Shown here in pieces: positions 48,160 to 54,169 of a DNA stretch of 64,000 nucleotides. The DNA comes from Synechococcus sp. A10-1-5-1. Lineage in GTDB: Bacteria; Cyanobacteriota; Cyanobacteriia; PCC-6307; Cyanobiaceae. How positions within the stretch are numbered: the first letter of the stretch is position 1; each line of letters starts with the position of its first letter. The notes beneath the pieces are model-generated. The model ran no database searches, was not told the origin of the DNA, and saw nothing but the letters and a program-made list of their open reading frames with translations. The translations under genes and the position numbers were made by a program. The stretch spans positions 806,001-870,000 of the forward strand of contig NZ_CP096032.1 in NCBI RefSeq assembly GCF_023115425.1, given 5' to 3'.

Positions 48160-48387
48160 CTAGACGTATCGGCCGGGATATTCGCCTGGATGATCAATCC
48201 GGGTGACCGTCACACCGGACGCCGTTCGCCCCGAAAAGCGAAGAAGGTCACTGCCTGAGACCTCAAAGCCGAGCTCCTGGGCCAAGCGAGCCACGTCATC
48301 GGCCGTCATGGCATCTTCCAGCGCTTGCCGTAGGGCGGGCTCAGCATGAACCCGCGCAAAAAACTGCTGTACCTGCTCAAACGCCAT
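48160..48387 (-). CDS. Nif11 family protein
   Basis: A 75-aa product with the Nif11 fold: helix MAFEQVQQFFARVHAEPALR, then ALEDAMTADDVARLAQELGFEVSGSDLLRF. The tail (about residues 52-75) is GRTASGVTVTRIDHPGEYPGRYV, with no Cys and no double-Gly cleavage site, so it does not look like a lanthipeptide precursor. No RiPP synthetase is nearby. It is convergent with arfB. Confidence 0.8.
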   Translation of the reverse strand: MAFEQVQQFFARVHAEPALRQALEDAMTADDVARLAQELGFEVSGSDLLRFSGRTASGVTVTRIDHPGEYPGRYV

Positions 48388-48945: not shown

Positions 48946-49085
48946 GCCAACAATGCAGGTCCCAGCGAAGCAACCAAAGAAATAGACATACAGAAATCAA
49001 CAACCTTAAACAAGGTAACAACCATTCCCATATCGAAACAAGAAGGATCAGAGTCTCTCTGATCCTGTGAAAAGCAAGCGTCGCC

Positions 49086-49799
49086 ATGCACTTATCCAAG
49101 GTCATCAAGGAAGGAATGAGCGGCGAAGCCTATGCAGGCTTAATCGATGGGGTTCAGGCCATTGTCCTGACGCTTCTGGTGCTCGAGATGCCTGATCTCA
49201 TCATCAACATCATCGAAAAAGCGTCTACACATGAGCTCAGAGCAGACCGCGTCGCCTTCATCGTGATTCAGCAGCTGGCTGGATACCTCCTAATCGCCAT
49301 TGTCATTTACGACATCTGGTCGATTCATAAAAGCCTTGTTCAAAATATCAGACCATCTAAGCTCTGCTCAATATCCACCCTGGGCACCCTATGGCTATCA
49401 ACACTCATCCCACCGATGTTCTTTCTGCTTGAACATTTTGTACAAGATCTCTCTCTGGGGGCGCTGATTGGAGAGATCCAAGACCCTGACATTGGCATCC
49501 TGTTGGCCATCCGATCCTCAGCACTCTTCCTGCTTTTGCTGATTTACTCTATTCTGCTGAATCTTGCGAACACCGAACTCCGTCAACCTGGTGATTCGAC
49601 GGACGCGGAGAAGTCGAGAAGACAGCAGCTCTCACTAAACCGGATTCTGCTCAAGCGTCGCTGCTTTGTCCTACCTGTTCTCATCGCCATCAGCCTGATC
49701 ATCGGCATCAAGACCGGAGCAATGGTGGTGCTTTTCCCATCATTAGCGCTAGCGATCACGATCTTCATTCCACCAAGCAAAAGCCTCAAAACAGCTTGA
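49086..49799 (+). CDS. TMEM175-like six-helix membrane protein
   Basis: The 237-aa product has about six helices (near residues 17-38, 62-82, 98-116, 145-165, 200-218 and 221-235). The first helix has LIDGVQAIVLTLLVLEMPDL, resembling the FSD signature of the TMEM175/DUF1211 potassium channel family, but F-S becomes L-I and the upstream Arg is missing. It lies in the low-GC region and is followed by a TRIC-like gene. Ion selectivity is inferred. Confidence 0.6.
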   Translation: MHLSKVIKEGMSGEAYAGLIDGVQAIVLTLLVLEMPDLIINIIEKASTHELRADRVAFIVIQQLAGYLLIAIVIYDIWSIHKSLVQNIRPSKLCSISTLGTLWLSTLIPPMFFLLEHFVQDLSLGALIGEIQDPDIGILLAIRSSALFLLLLIYSILLNLANTELRQPGDSTDAEKSRRQQLSLNRILLKRRCFVLPVLIAISLIIGIKTGAMVVLFPSLALAITIFIPPSKSLKTA

Positions 49800-49910
49800 C
49801 GGCCCATGCAGAACAACAGGCTCGGAGGACTTGGCCGGATGTAGAGGGGCGCGCGTTGCCTTCTTGCGCTTATCGATCTAATTCCTATTGGCCCTCAAGA
49901 TTTTCTTAAA

Positions 49911-50738
49911 ATGCAGCATCGCGAGTCTAATAACCTCATTTATCCCAAGCCAACGAATGCCTGCGGGCAGGTCGCCAAATCCCGATTGGGCTTGATGTCG
50001 GCATTAATTCTCATAGCCTTTATTGTCTTAGCAATCTGGATACAACGTGTCAACCCATTAGTTCTTACCGATGATGGCCGAGCCCAGCTGGAGTCAGTCT
50101 TTACATCGTCTCGCCTTAAGCCCTGGGATCTGATTGGCACCATTGCTTATGCTGTTTATGGCTTCCTAACAGCCAAGAGACTGCAATATGGTTTATGGGG
50201 TGCTTTTATCTTGACTTTGCTTCCCGCAGTTGGAGGTGGAGTCGTGCGCGATCTTCTCATTGGTGGAGAACGACTGCCGCTATTTATCTTTAATGACCCT
50301 TCATACTTAATAGCTATCCTAGCGGTACTTTTCGTTGGCGTATCTGTGCGACCAAAATGGCCTTCCAAGCTGCTAATAGTTGCCGATTCGATCGGACTAG
50401 CTACTTTTGCAGTGATAGGAACGAGAGTCGCTTTATTAGCTGAACTCCCATGGTATTGGTGGCCCATTTCAGCCGCTCTGACTTGCACTGGTGGCGGGAT
50501 ACTTATGGATGTGATAACGGCACATGAGCCAAAGGTTTTCACGGGTGAACCTTATGAGGAAATTGCATATGGGGGTGGCTTTTTATTGACTATTCTTTGG
50601 TTCTTGCAAAATCAACTTTTTGGCAGGGACGCTTTGATCCTAATGCCGATATTAGTGGCTTGGCTTTCAATGTTTTCATTACGTCTTCTGGTTGTTCGTA
50701 AAGGCTGGCGTTCATGGCGACTCACTAACGACAGCTAG
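49911..50738 (+). CDS. TRIC/UPF0126 family cation channel
   Basis: The 275-aa product has two UPF0126 repeats: DLIGTIAYAVYGFLTAKR followed by GGGVVRDLLIGG, and then DSIGLATFAVIGTR followed by TGGGILMDVITA. These are the signature of TRIC-type monovalent cation channels. The N-terminal 50 residues, with an extra helix (about 26-46), are additional. A second-repeat RD is changed to MD. Codons are AT-rich compared with the core. Confidence 0.85.
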   Translation: MQHRESNNLIYPKPTNACGQVAKSRLGLMSALILIAFIVLAIWIQRVNPLVLTDDGRAQLESVFTSSRLKPWDLIGTIAYAVYGFLTAKRLQYGLWGAFILTLLPAVGGGVVRDLLIGGERLPLFIFNDPSYLIAILAVLFVGVSVRPKWPSKLLIVADSIGLATFAVIGTRVALLAELPWYWWPISAALTCTGGGILMDVITAHEPKVFTGEPYEEIAYGGGFLLTILWFLQNQLFGRDALILMPILVAWLSMFSLRLLVVRKGWRSWRLTNDS

Positions 50739-51021
50739 CGCCAAGTCCAATAGCATCTAAGTAGCTGATAAGCCTCTTTCTCCTCATACAAATCTGGAAA
50801 GTCAATCCTCCCGCTCTAATCCATAAGCAAGCACGACTGCCGCCTTTACCTTGATTGGCCATCGCATAATGCAGCTGGGTGATTCTGATGCTCTCAATTT
50901 TGCTCGTCTTCCACAGGTTCAGGCTGGCTTGCATCTTCGGGTAGTGAACCCATGGTTACTCTTGAGCGAGTGGTTGCTGCCTGACTGCTTGCGGCGAGGG
51001 AAGCCCACTTCCAAACCTTGA

Positions 51022-51419
51022 CTATGGCTTATTCATCTCAGCAAGCAGAGCACTAGACACCTTTGGCTTAGATGCGGGGTACAACCTCAGTGCCCTCATA
51101 ACTTCTGTTGGCTACCACTGCCAAAACGGTGACACAGGTGCAGCGGTCGGATCTGCCATCTTGTTTCGCCTGGCTTACTTATGCCAGCAAAAACGACTTA
51201 ACCATTGGCACAAATCTTTCCTCTAACAGCTCCTTCAAGGTCGCGCTTCCCCGCTGAAATCAAGCGAGAGCCAATGCTGCCGTTACTGCCCTAACATCAA
51301 CGCTAGGCAACAGGGATACTCGGGAACACAATTCTGTCGGCGGAAATACTTGGCTTGCAAATTCCCAGAACAATAATTCAACCTACAAAAGCCTTGGGTT
51401 CACAAGTTTTGTCCCTTAG
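51022..51419 (+). pseudogene. Decayed beta-barrel gene related to the intact gene at 51853-52881
   Basis: The translation matches the intact barrel protein in two frames. YGL and ALDTFGLDAGYNLS match residues near YGL and ALDTYGFDAGYSIT; SVGYHCQNGD matches SVGYYYQNGD. After a frameshift near 51180, TIGTNLSSNSSFKV matches TVGTNLSYDSAFKS. There is then an in-frame TGA at 51255-51257, and the C-terminal ALTSTLGNRDTREH still matches ALTESVKNRDVRVH. No start codon or signal peptide remains. Confidence 0.85.
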
Positions 51420-51554
51420 CCAGTCACAACAACAAGCCGATAAATCAACACTTACTTGATAGATTTAGTTCAGTAGAGGCCGGCAGACCTCAGACGTTGA
51501 AGAGAAATTCCATAGGTTCTAGTCATAGCAATAGATCTTAGCCGAAAAGCGGCA

Positions 51555-51587
51555 GTAGACTTTTCGTAGACTTTTCGTAGACTTTTC
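51555..51587. repeat. Three perfect 11-bp direct repeats
   Basis: GTAGACTTTTC occurs three times head to tail at 51555-51565, 51566-51576 and 51577-51587, with no mismatch. A fourth partial copy, GTAGAC, is at 51602. The role is unknown: a slippage product, a protein-binding site or a remnant of an element end are all possible. Confidence 0.95.
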
Positions 51588-51602
51588 AAGCCGCCAAACC
51601 AG

Positions 51603-51622
51603 TAGACAAAGTATCTTGTCTA
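51603..51622. repeat. Palindrome next to the tandem repeat
   Basis: TAGACAA (51603-51609) and TTGTCTA (51616-51622) form a perfect 7-bp inverted repeat with a 6-base spacer. It shares TAGAC with the tandem repeat 16 bases upstream. It is either an operator-like site or a hairpin; there is no T run after it. Confidence 0.85.
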
Positions 51623-51699
51623 ACCTGATTCAGCTCACACTCTCCACTGTCTGGACTTCCGCCGGGCTGCACTAATCCAGAGCACATGGGACGCCGCCA

Positions 51700-51792
51700 A
51701 TGCTCCAGTTCATTGGACTCGGTGACGCAGCAGGAATCTTCGTTGGAGTCTCGTCTGCCTTCATCCTGCTGACGACCAATCAACTGCTCTAA
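51700..51792 (+). CDS. Possible 30-aa single-helix protein
   Basis: A frame of 30 residues with a hydrophobic core (FIGLGDAAGIFVGVSSAFILL) that would form one membrane helix. No ribosome-binding site stands out. It lies 60 bases before the barrel gene. It may be chance or a leader frame. Confidence 0.2.
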   Translation: MLQFIGLGDAAGIFVGVSSAFILLTTNQLL

Positions 51793-51852
51793 GCCCAGTG
51801 GCAATGCGACATTTCCTGGCGAGACTCCAGTTAGAAGTTCAGCGCGAGCGCA

Positions 51853-52881
51853 ATGCAGCAGTCCATTCGCCTGAGCCTCTCCCTCACTGGTGCAGCTGCT
51901 TTGGCACTGGCATCAATGCCGCAGGTGAGCGCAAAGCCTGCAGTGGTGGCGCAAGGGAGCGCGGAAGACCTTGGAGTGATGAGCATCCGCCTCAAGGATG
52001 TGGTGAAACCGCAGGTTGGTGTTCAAGGTCAAACCCAAGCGGCTGGCACCCCGAATGAGGCAGGCATTGGCGGTTTTATGCCGCTGGTGGTGGGAGAGAA
52101 CAGCGTCTTCTTTGCTGATGTGCTGGCGAATGCGAACTTCGCGGACTGGGGCAACAGCAGCAGCATCATCAATACCAAGGTGGCGGGTCCCACCATCAGC
52201 ACGTCATCCAGGCTTGGGTATCGCTGGCTGAATGGTGACCGCAGTTGGATGTTTGGTGTCAACGGTGGGTATGACACCCGACCGATGGCAACGGGTGATG
52301 CCGATACAGGTGTTGCGGTCTCTGGTCAGCGGACAGTCTTTTTCCAGCAGGCAGCGTTTGGCTTGGAGGCAGTGAATGATGACTGGAGCTTCAATGCCTA
52401 TGGATTAATACCAACTGGAACAACGGAATACAGGTTGAATAGTGCTTACAACGGGGGAGCACTGGATACGTATGGGTTTGATGCGGGCTACAGCATCACG
52501 CCAGAGTGGAAGCTGAGTGTTGGCTATTACTACCAGAATGGCGACCTCAATACAGCTGATAGCTCAGGCGTGCTGGGGCGACTGGCTTACAGCATCAATG
52601 AGGGAGTAACGGTTGGCACCAATCTGTCTTATGACAGCGCGTTTAAGTCACGCTTCTCAGCTGACATTAAGTGGCGGTTCAATACGGCAGGAATTTCGCA
52701 AAGCGAGAAGCAGAAGAAAGCGTGGGAGAAGCCAACGATTAAGGCATTAACTGAGAGCGTGAAGAATAGGGATGTACGGGTGCACGATACGACCTGGTGT
52801 AATACCCCAGGCGGGGAACCGGGAATATTAGTAACTACCCCTGGAGACGGGAAGTCTGTGTGTGTCACGATTACGCCCTAA
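51853..52881 (+). CDS. Predicted outer-membrane beta-barrel protein (inverse-autotransporter-like)
   Basis: The 342-aa product has a signal peptide (about residues 1-27, ending VSA) and a beta-rich body with aromatic strand ends. IGGFMPLVVG, FFADVLANANFADWGNSS, SRLGYRWL and FGVNGGYDTRP match the pattern of intimin/inverse-autotransporter barrels. After the barrel (about residue 275) a soluble tail contains NRDVRVHD and two Cys. It is probably in the outer membrane. A strong terminator follows. Codons are AT-richer than the core, and a decayed relative lies upstream. Confidence 0.72.
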   Translation: MQQSIRLSLSLTGAAALALASMPQVSAKPAVVAQGSAEDLGVMSIRLKDVVKPQVGVQGQTQAAGTPNEAGIGGFMPLVVGENSVFFADVLANANFADWGNSSSIINTKVAGPTISTSSRLGYRWLNGDRSWMFGVNGGYDTRPMATGDADTGVAVSGQRTVFFQQAAFGLEAVNDDWSFNAYGLIPTGTTEYRLNSAYNGGALDTYGFDAGYSITPEWKLSVGYYYQNGDLNTADSSGVLGRLAYSINEGVTVGTNLSYDSAFKSRFSADIKWRFNTAGISQSEKQKKAWEKPTIKALTESVKNRDVRVHDTTWCNTPGGEPGILVTTPGDGKSVCVTITP

Positions 52882-52910
52882 TGTAGGGTGAGCCTAACCA
52901 CCCAACGCCC

Positions 52911-52940
52911 AAAGCCCCTGTAACCGCAGGGGCTTTTTAT
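52911..52940 (+). terminator. Rho-independent terminator of the barrel gene
   Basis: AGCCCCTG (52913-52920) and CAGGGGCT (52927-52934) form a perfect 8-bp stem with a 6-base loop, followed by TTTTT. It lies about 30 bases after the stop. Confidence 0.9.
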
Positions 52941-53077
52941 TTCTTCAGTCACACCAAGAAGCCAGCAAATCAGCATCCAATACCTGGCACTGTCGTCATC
53001 AACGCAACCTGATGACAGACCCATAAGGGCACTGAATAGAAGTTGCCTCAGGATAAAAAGTCAGCTGTGGGTAGTCG

Positions 53078-54169
53078 TTACACGTTGAAGAGGAACTCCA
53101 TCACATCCCCCTCTTCAACGACATATTCTTTTCCTTCAGCGCGCAGCCAACCTTTATTGCGCGCTTCTGCCAGTGATCCCGCCTCAAGCAGCTGCTTGTA
53201 GCCAATGGTCTGCGCGCGAATAAAGCCGCGTTCAAAGTCGGTGTGAATGACACCAGCAGCCTGGGGAGCGGTCATGCCCGCCTTGATCGTCCAAGCACGG
53301 GTTTCTTTCTCACCTGTCGTGAAATAGGTACGCAGGCCGAGAAGGCTATAGGTGGCACGAATCAGGCTTTGAAGACCACCCTCTTCAACACCCAATCCTT
53401 CCAGGAATTCGGCCCGATCCTCTTCGGGCAGTTCAATCAGCTCAGCCTCGACCTGCGCTGAGATTCGCACCGTTCCAGCACCCTCTTTCTCAGCCAAGAC
53501 GGCGACTTCTTCGCAGTAGGCATTGCCACTGGAGAGGTCGTCTTCGCTGACGTTGGTCGCATAGATGATCGGCTTGGCCGTCAGCAAACCCAGGGGCTTG
53601 ATCATCGCGGCCTCTTCATCGGTGAGGCTGACGCTGCGGGCCGCACCGCCCTGCTCCAGCACCGCCTGGATCCGCTCCAGGGCTGCGTATTCCACCTGGG
53701 CTTCCTTGCTGGTGCGCACTTGCTTTTTCAAACGCTCGCGGCGTTTCTCCAGCTGGGAGAGGTCCGCCAAACCGAGCTCCAGATTGATCACCTCGGCATC
53801 GCGGGCCGGACCGACGGATCCGCTCACGTGGATCACGTCGTCGTTTTCAAAGCACCGGACGACGTGGACGATGGCATCCACCTCGCGAATGTTGGCCAGA
53901 AATTTGTTGCCCAGCCCTTCCCCTTGGCTGGCACCCTTGACCAGACCGGCGATATCCACAAACTCAACCCGAGTGGGAATCAGCTCCTTGCTGCTGCTCA
54001 GATCAGAGAGCTGCTGCAAGCGGGGATCCGGAACCGCCACCACACCGGAGTTCGGCTCAATGGTGCAGAAGGGGTAGTTGGCGGCTTCGGCCTGGGCATT
54101 GGCCACCAGTGCGTTGAAGAGGGTCGACTTGCCCACATTGGGCAGCCCCACGATTCCGGCTTTAAGCAT
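53078..54169 (-). CDS. ychF: YchF (Obg-like) GTPase/ATPase
   Basis: YchF is a ribosome-associated, redox-sensitive ATPase of the Obg family. The 363-aa product has G1 GLPNVGKST (residues 8-16), VDIAGLVKGAS near 73, the NVSEDD segment instead of a standard NKxD (as in OLA1/YchF) and a C-terminal TGS-like domain ending EEGDVMEFLFNV. It is the first core gene after the AT-rich region. Confidence 0.97.
   Translation of the reverse strand: MLKAGIVGLPNVGKSTLFNALVANAQAEAANYPFCTIEPNSGVVAVPDPRLQQLSDLSSSKELIPTRVEFVDIAGLVKGASQGEGLGNKFLANIREVDAIVHVVRCFENDDVIHVSGSVGPARDAEVINLELGLADLSQLEKRRERLKKQVRTSKEAQVEYAALERIQAVLEQGGAARSVSLTDEEAAMIKPLGLLTAKPIIYATNVSEDDLSSGNAYCEEVAVLAEKEGAGTVRISAQVEAELIELPEEDRAEFLEGLGVEEGGLQSLIRATYSLLGLRTYFTTGEKETRAWTIKAGMTAPQAAGVIHTDFERGFIRAQTIGYKQLLEAGSLAEARNKGWLRAEGKEYVVEEGDVMEFLFNV

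Follow-up and report, generated by a model that had tools for sequence, protein, structure and literature searches.

Miniature inverse-autotransporter-like barrels of picocyanobacteria as probable carriers of hypervariable, cysteine-paired surface peptides

What can a ruined gene beside an intact relative reveal about the protein that both specify? The question arises in a 64,000-nucleotide stretch of the Synechococcus sp. A10-1-5-1 chromosome (NZ_CP096032.1, positions 806,001 to 870,000 of the forward strand; hereafter the window, whose own coordinates are used throughout for this locus). A preliminary description had pointed here to a broken beta-barrel gene close to an intact one (Table 1) and read the two as the outcome of repeated gain, duplication or replacement of a surface barrel gene, as expected if phages or grazers select on it. 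The broken gene is a genuine gene ruin, ordinary in itself. A frame-aware alignment between window positions 51000-51450 and the intact protein reaches a score of 165 and pairs 98 residues, 52 of them identical, between 51050 and 51350 (residues 203-318 of the intact protein, which the alignment covers from residue 203 on); 25 dinucleotide-preserving shuffles, aligned to residues 151-320, reach a mean of 27.9 and a maximum of 40, and the real score against that same range is also 165. The identity therefore lies far above that of shuffled sequence, and no intact unrelated gene occupies the stretch, which contains no ORF of at least 60 aa. A translated search of the organism's own genome likewise recovers part of it (857044-857184, that is, window 51044-51184; E 5e-7). 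The frameshift proposed near 51180 was confirmed by the alignment, and the TGA proposed at 51255 is present in the sequence, where the aligner bypassed it via frame changes near 51241 and 51267; since these two extra frame changes were preferred over reading through the TGA, the remnant has at least two lesions. We considered whether it is a simple recent duplicate of its intact neighbor and rejected this: the DNA-level search listed no match between the two, while its main matches are to another copy in the same genome (427033-427245, 75%) and to the copies of a relative (66-73%), so that it is nearer to those than to the gene beside it.

Table 1. Features of the barrel-gene locus, in window coordinates; the parts of the protein are predicted
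Feature	Position	Strand	Remarks
Barrel-gene remnant	51022-51419	+	C-terminal part, motif region reading NRDTREH, tail closed by TAG; two lesions or more
ychF 3'-end-like piece behind the remnant	51482-51513		direct repeat, 78% over 32 nt, with 53070-53101
Block upstream of the intact gene	51494-51840	+	84% to G008:1110838-1111171; most of its length also to 1109279-1109568
Intact inverse-autotransporter-like gene	51853-52881	+	342 aa
Putative signal peptide	51853-51939 (end approximate)	+	assigned by eye: charged start, hydrophobic stretch, ASMPQVSAKPA
Predicted 12-strand beta-barrel, residues 54-277	52012-52683	+	AF2 model; best structural matches intimin and invasin
Linker with helical turn, residues 283-304	52699-52764	+	model helices 283-287, 289-292, 294-298
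Junction motif NRDVRVHD, residues 305-312, read as exit strand	52765-52788	+	from conservation and structural alignment
Hypervariable tail (mini-passenger)	52789-52878	+	TTWCNTPGGEPGILVTTPGDGKSVCVTITP; Cys316 and Cys337
Terminator-like hairpin	52911-52941	+	GCCCCTG..CAGGGGCTTTTTATT; kind seen behind barrel genes
Family-associated box	52977-52990	+	CCAATACCTGGCAC

The surroundings of the two genes indicate a locus in turnover. The gene that follows the intact copy is ychF, and a piece resembling the end of ychF also follows the remnant; a tandem duplication of barrel gene plus ychF end would produce such an arrangement. Among related genomes, one (G008) holds two intact tandem barrel genes at the syntenic locus, as against the one intact and one ruined copy of A10-1-5-1, and the block upstream of the window gene precedes both of them too (84%). 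The flanking proteins of the two genomes are nearly the same (ychF 98.6%, an HlyD-like protein 97.0% and an epimerase 94.7% identical), whereas identity to the window protein is just 74% and 71% for the two G008 barrels, which are thus far more diverged than their neighbors. The A10-1-5-1 genome itself yields five matches at E<=0.001, that is, copies or pieces. Besides the window gene and the remnant, these comprise three more. One at 2033323 (L002/L010) encodes a protein 97% identical to that of the window gene, but its third codon is an in-frame TAG; a second (426919-427812; L003/L011) is 74% identical and has an internal in-frame TAG; a third, at 2182654, is intact and 56% identical. The TAG-interrupted copies might represent recent loss or, possibly, copies that are switched off. 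Duplication and replacement of the barrel gene, as first proposed, are thus supported by the tandem barrels of G008, the ychF-end repeat and the five copies or pieces, two of them TAG-interrupted; the complete change of the C-terminal tail from copy to copy, which is our main concern below, had no place in that proposal. The GC content of positions 49000-53000 is 0.47-0.53, as opposed to mostly 0.6-0.67 elsewhere in the window, and this segment carries TMEM175-like and glycine-transporter-like genes. G008 has a 602-aa protein in their place, suggesting a variable insertion site adjoining ychF. A Nif11-domain peptide (48160-48387, minus strand; E 4e-13) is encoded near the same variable stretch.

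To what class does the intact protein belong? An AF2 model built from 16 sequences reached a mean pLDDT of 69, and one from 64 sequences a mean pLDDT of 83.7 with a pTM of 0.77. The predicted structure has 12 long strands, a broken helical turn at residues 283-298 and a further strand at 310-317. Foldseek ranked intimin (E 5e-10), 5g26 (1.4e-9; aligned like intimin, judging by its numbering) and invasin (2e-9) at the top. In VIA-align the three best entries for the 64-sequence model have Z-scores of 22.9, 22.9 and 22.5 (rmsd 2.8-3.0 over 225-227 residues; among them 4e1s with Z 22.9 and rmsd 2.9 over 227, and 4e1t with Z 22.5 and rmsd 3.0 over 227) against 18.2 for the next, and for the 16-sequence model 23.5, 23.5 and 22.9 against 17.5. 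By predicted structure, the barrel accordingly has the 12 strands of the intimin/invasin type. By sequence the relationship is faint. The window protein has no match at E<=1 to the Pfam model IAT_beta (PF11924; cut-off 22.3 bits), which 10 of 16 relatives match weakly at that level (best E 0.009), and a search of the family profile against PDB sequences found neither intimin nor invasin; its sole match, cathepsin K (E 0.5-0.7), we judged to be due to chance. The window protein, being below the IAT_beta cut-off, is hence filed as a divergent variant by its structure and not as a member of the Pfam family. Sister proteins with a homologous barrel and linker occur in the same bacterial family (L216-L221). 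They differ from the window family in a longer C-terminal part, and three of the six fetched were scanned with IAT_beta (L216, L217 and L220), all of which pass the cut-off. L217 is the longest at 1379 aa; it has a right-handed beta-helix region and, in the part that forms the barrel, a sequence match to invasin (E 0.0044).

The class bears on where the tail would lie. Even-stranded barrels with a periplasmic N-terminus normally also end in the periplasm, and this general rule, along with the failure of the window protein to reach IAT_beta, would favor an ordinary pore with a periplasmic tail that binds a variable partner or plugs the pore. We regard this as unlikely. The proteins standing 4-6 Z above the next barrels are intimin and invasin, for which type Ve export is established and whose C-terminus is exported (PMC3467248). 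Further, among the 50 matches listed for each model, only intimin, 5g26 and invasin aligned past residue 300, through the linker to residue 313 (intimin to its residue 449); a sister with both IAT_beta and a large beta-helix passenger exists; and hypervariability of a tail seems easier to explain on the outside of the cell. We therefore read the conserved NRDVRVHD segment as the probable exit strand, with the variable tail starting where the chain would reach the outside. The predicted inverse-autotransporter fold likewise lends support to the word 'surface' in the first reading of this barrel.

The boundary between carrier and tail is sharp in the family at large. The family profile is matched by 133 distinct closed ORFs, of which 121 are full-length with a recognizable junction and were kept for the tail counts; the other 12 cover the profile partly or miss the junction pattern, though at least six of them show a readable motif. 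The junction reads NRDVRVHD in 57 of the 121, NRNIRVHD in 13 and HRDVRVHD in 11, alongside 30 rarer variants, and R306 and V310 are invariant in all 64 aligned proteins. By mean column entropy the motif (0.47 bits) varies least, followed by the barrel (0.94), linker residues 277-297 (2.13) and the tail (3.14). The 121 full-length barrels bear 118 different tails, with a median length of 28 residues and a range of 2-107; 86 of the 118 have 10-60 residues, and the longest may be small domains rather than loops. Even in the 25 pairs whose barrels are 95-100% identical, the tails are unrelated in 18, intermediate in three and similar in four (identical in three of these). At the DNA level we compared 282 pairs that combine barrels of at least 85% identity with dissimilar tails: the final 6 nt of the motif show an identity of 0.91, the six bases after it 0.45, and the positions beyond these 0.33 falling to 0.25. 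In the tandem pair that shows this most clearly (L166), a 1008-nt match of 99.6% identity stops where the motif does, and similarity returns at the terminator (46 nt, 89%). Similarly, the match between the window gene and the 2033323 copy stops one base before the motif end and returns at the terminator (63 nt, 78%). In this last pair, in which the copies are 95.7% identical, the barrels differ by 30 synonymous and nine nonsynonymous changes (dN/dS 0.084), which indicates that the window barrel is under purifying selection.

The reverse situation, one tail on two distant barrels, was found once at barrel identities below 85%: the tail of the 2033323 copy, CESGEWLAPNFFACWD, recurs nearly unchanged as CDDGEWLAPNFFACWD on a 64%-identical barrel in another genome (L002/L051). 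As to the DNA encoding the window tail, a search of 400 genomes recovered its own place and 19-21 nt pieces in four others, and nothing else. A diversity-generating retroelement was considered as the source of the tails and set aside, as their wholly different lengths and sequences are unlike the products of point mutagenesis.

Such extreme variation could in principle mean that the tails do nothing: the 3' end of the gene would drift or be broken by recombination, and the ribosome would read on to a chance stop. Three tails of five residues or fewer and the several broken copies fit this, but the cysteines tell strongly against it. They make up 276 of 4488 tail residues (6.1%), as against 19 of 35906 in barrel and linker (0.05%), and their number per tail is mostly even: among the 118 tails, 17 have none, three have one, 67 have two, three have three, 21 have four, five have six and two have eight. 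When each of the 97 similarity clusters is represented by a single tail, non-zero even counts occur in 75 and odd ones in five (binomial p 4e-17). The unclustered subsets agree, with 35 even to three odd among loci on genome contigs and 61 to three among the rest (one tail occurs in both). In contrast, there is no excess of even counts in the other two frames, the reverse strand or the downstream DNA (even/odd 19/39, 27/50, 32/46 and 21/42), where the cysteine share is 2.0-4.4%. Moreover, 58 of the 118 tails extend to 30 residues or more, while the other frames hold 3.5 and 7.9 stops per 100 codons, and a terminator-like hairpin stands behind 59 of 119 genes. Non-functional tails are thus hardly credible. 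Even numbers are what disulfide pairing predicts, and the sequences argue that the tails are selected rather than noise; most would be closed by disulfides.

If the tails are selected and yet so readily exchanged, what lies on their far side? Beyond the hairpin, a box, AATACCTGGCAC, is found with at most one mismatch in 57 of 119 downstream flanks, as compared with 12 of 114 upstream flanks, none of 119 shuffled ones and none on the reverse strand; in 36 of the 44 flanks that have both, it stands 49-50 nt after the terminator. It might have been a genome-wide repeat, but this is rejected for the genus: in 25 genomes the 13-mer CAATACCTGGCAC has six exact matches, each of them behind a barrel gene. 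Roughly half of the copies, then, visibly have their tail set between conserved flanks, and such flanks suffice for exchanging it through homologous recombination. Of the 115 barrels whose flank spans at least 1000 nt, 34 (about 30%) are followed by a Y1-type transposase gene or its remnant, always on the opposite strand and in 27 of the 34 at 230-320 nt from the barrel stop, as opposed to 12 of 107 on the upstream side; copies within one genome are not independent in these counts. A representative (L169:3888-4817) matches Y1_Tnp (PF01797) with E 3.4e-13 and 50.2 bits (cut-off 23). These genes may be of the RAYT (IS200-like) subgroup; that the transposase helps in tail replacement is a guess.

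Taking the evidence together, we consider it probable that the window gene and its relatives encode miniature type Ve inverse autotransporters, on which a hypervariable, usually disulfide-closed peptide is displayed, and that the whole tail is replaced between conserved flanks. The family, the predicted fold match, the boundary, the diversity of the tails, the cysteine parity and the turnover of copies are computational results, while surface exposure, disulfides, exchange mechanism and function are inferences from them. The signal peptide would direct the protein to the periplasm, the 12-strand barrel would insert into the outer membrane, and the linker with its helical turn would thread the barrel pore, so as to position the conserved NRDVRVHD strand at the outer mouth. 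The residues past it (median 28), usually with at least one disulfide, would then form the displayed passenger. While purifying selection would keep barrel and motif constant, the tail as a whole could be swapped between a left flank of barrel and motif and a right flank of terminator and 12-14 nt box, most likely through homologous recombination or gene conversion, both among copies and with incoming DNA. Tandem gain and loss of copies would accompany this, and the ruin at 51022-51419 would be one lost copy. We infer as the likely use a variable surface recognition, be it evasion or a decoy against phages or grazers, or recognition between cells; the selection by phages or grazers that was first invoked for this barrel remains plausible.

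A conserved carrier with a sharp junction motif, unrelated C-terminal tips and tandem arrays also recalls polymorphic toxins, including the CdiA proteins of CDI systems, in which a junction motif separates a conserved carrier from a replaceable C-terminal tip. The tail could by analogy be a toxin or bacteriocin tip. We hold this to be quite improbable: the carrier here is a small barrel, and 86 of the tails are, at 10-60 residues, not enzyme-sized. No tail-matched immunity gene lies directly downstream of the window copy, where just 196 nt precede ychF on the other strand and leave no room for a linked one. A different comparison is offered by the prochlorosins of the same group of organisms, Nif11-leader lanthipeptides in which a conserved leader precedes a hypervariable, cysteine-containing core. 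They differ in that the conserved part of the window family is an outer-membrane barrel, and there is no Nif11 match in the window protein nor among the nine families listed for 16 relatives. Still, the tail might be a precursor peptide, carried by the barrel until its modification and release, with PqqD-like and sulfotransferase genes for its maturation. A block with PqqD and sulfotransferase genes (both above the Pfam cut-offs), a gene weakly HPr kinase-like (below the cut-off) and one without assignment indeed flanks a barrel in about 13 genomes, the 2033323 copy of A10-1-5-1 included, and Nif11 peptides are encoded near other barrels. However, just two of the 25 genomes of the genus have the sulfotransferase, A10-1-5-1 and the barrel-less G020, and it is absent from the barrel carriers G008 (seven barrels) and G014 (three). 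This suggests a shared insertion site rather than a partner, weakens the case for a functional link between barrel and block, and makes the precursor explanation very unlikely. A neighbor gene first guessed to be a GNAT has no GNAT match in Pfam. Nif11-like ORFs recur around barrels elsewhere, with eight in a single locus (L194).

The family is patchily distributed. Seven of the 25 genomes of the genus contain it. Matches at E<=0.001 are present in 73 of 400 genomes from the bacterial family, spread over 17 of 59 genera, and the weaker ones include the long-passenger sister proteins; this patchiness implies a dispensable function. At most five candidates were scored per genome in the 400-genome search, and copy numbers from it are lower bounds. 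Across the phylum, 14 of 292 sampled genomes have a match at E<=1e-6, 13 of them in the same bacterial family and one distant. Named carriers include Synechococcus WH7803, RCC307, UW105 and UW140 and Prochlorococcus MIT 0701; in WH7803, a laboratory strain, there is at least one member (L089). Among the loci examined, full-length barrels number 16 in G097 (with 14 different tails), seven each in G008, MIT 0701 and G143, six in UW140 and four in G122. Records labelled Gammaproteobacteria, Haliea, Verrucomicrobiales, Sheuella and Spirochaeta also contain the family (L094, L100, L101, L107, L114, L121, L124); these are MAG contigs, and may thus be misbinned cyanobacterial ones. A viral origin is rejected: IMG/VR, searched by pattern and tblastn, holds no relative (13 pattern matches, none confirmed), tblastn found none in 50,697 phage records, and against viral structure models Foldseek returned only generic barrels, the best query-normalized TM-score among the 50 matches listed being 0.37. 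Two five-barrel arrays of G097 (L166 and L167) lie in opposite orientation and have two identical tails in common while the others differ, as though the array had been duplicated in inverted form and most tails had then been replaced.

In terms of known systems, the closest parallel is with intimin and invasin themselves (type Ve; TC 1.B.54), with which the modelled window family would share an N-terminal 12-strand barrel, a helical turn and linker leading to the exit strand, and a C-terminal passenger. Their passenger is a chain of Ig-like domains, whereas that of the window family is a short hypervariable peptide, usually with paired cysteines; sequence identity in the structural alignments is 11-15%, and, unlike them, the window family has several copies in many genomes and a tail that is exchanged at one constant junction. 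Cyanobacterial Int/Inv proteins were described in 2010 as barrel-only and of unknown function (PMC3008723), and barrels of the intimin/invasin type were counted in 2015 in five Prochlorales and nine Synechococcus strains (PMC4365693). Going by the passages of these papers available to us, the proteins probably include members of the window family, by description rather than by a comparison of accessions, and those passages make no mention of a hypervariable tail, cysteine pairing or tail exchange. The 'intimin' of Synechococcus elongatus PCC 7942 has reportedly been engineered as a scaffold for tag display (PMC11022076), and is thus a cyanobacterial outer-membrane display protein of the intimin type, but an engineered and not a hypervariable one. 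In the open-licence literature we found no report of a hypervariable cysteine-paired tail, an absence that carries little weight, nor anything on inverse autotransporters in Synechococcus or Prochlorococcus, or on RAYT in Synechococcus. This class of barrel has been described before; what appears to be new is a variant of it, with a hypervariable mini-passenger and a cassette-like junction.

Should the tails be exposed, proteins earlier recorded as passenger-less barrels would constitute a diversified surface-recognition system of picocyanobacteria. They would then be named, cloneable candidates for differences between strains of one genus in their sensitivity to phages and grazers, as well as a natural minimal display scaffold consisting of barrel, linker, strand and a free disulfide-closed peptide. 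How tails come to be replaced can be put to a direct test, given the sharp junction, the fixed 3' box and the transposase gene next to them. More tentatively, and with rather more doubt than belief, we entertain the idea that picocyanobacteria might possess in these proteins a natural, continually renewed library of surface peptides, with up to 16 carriers per genome, nearly all with a different and mostly disulfide-closed tip, whose cassettes would be replaced between fixed flanks, perhaps with the aid of the RAYT-like transposase, and would serve in recognition or evasion of phages, grazers or kin. Finally, a barrel-less ORF of 83 aa lies close behind a barrel gene in Synechococcus RCC307 (L111:6078-6326) and also in L157. 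In L111 it has a signal-peptide-like start followed by ...TKSPSNRNVRVHD and a two-cysteine tail, with no Pfam match; it might be a passenger that has split off from its barrel, or else have arisen through an internal deletion.
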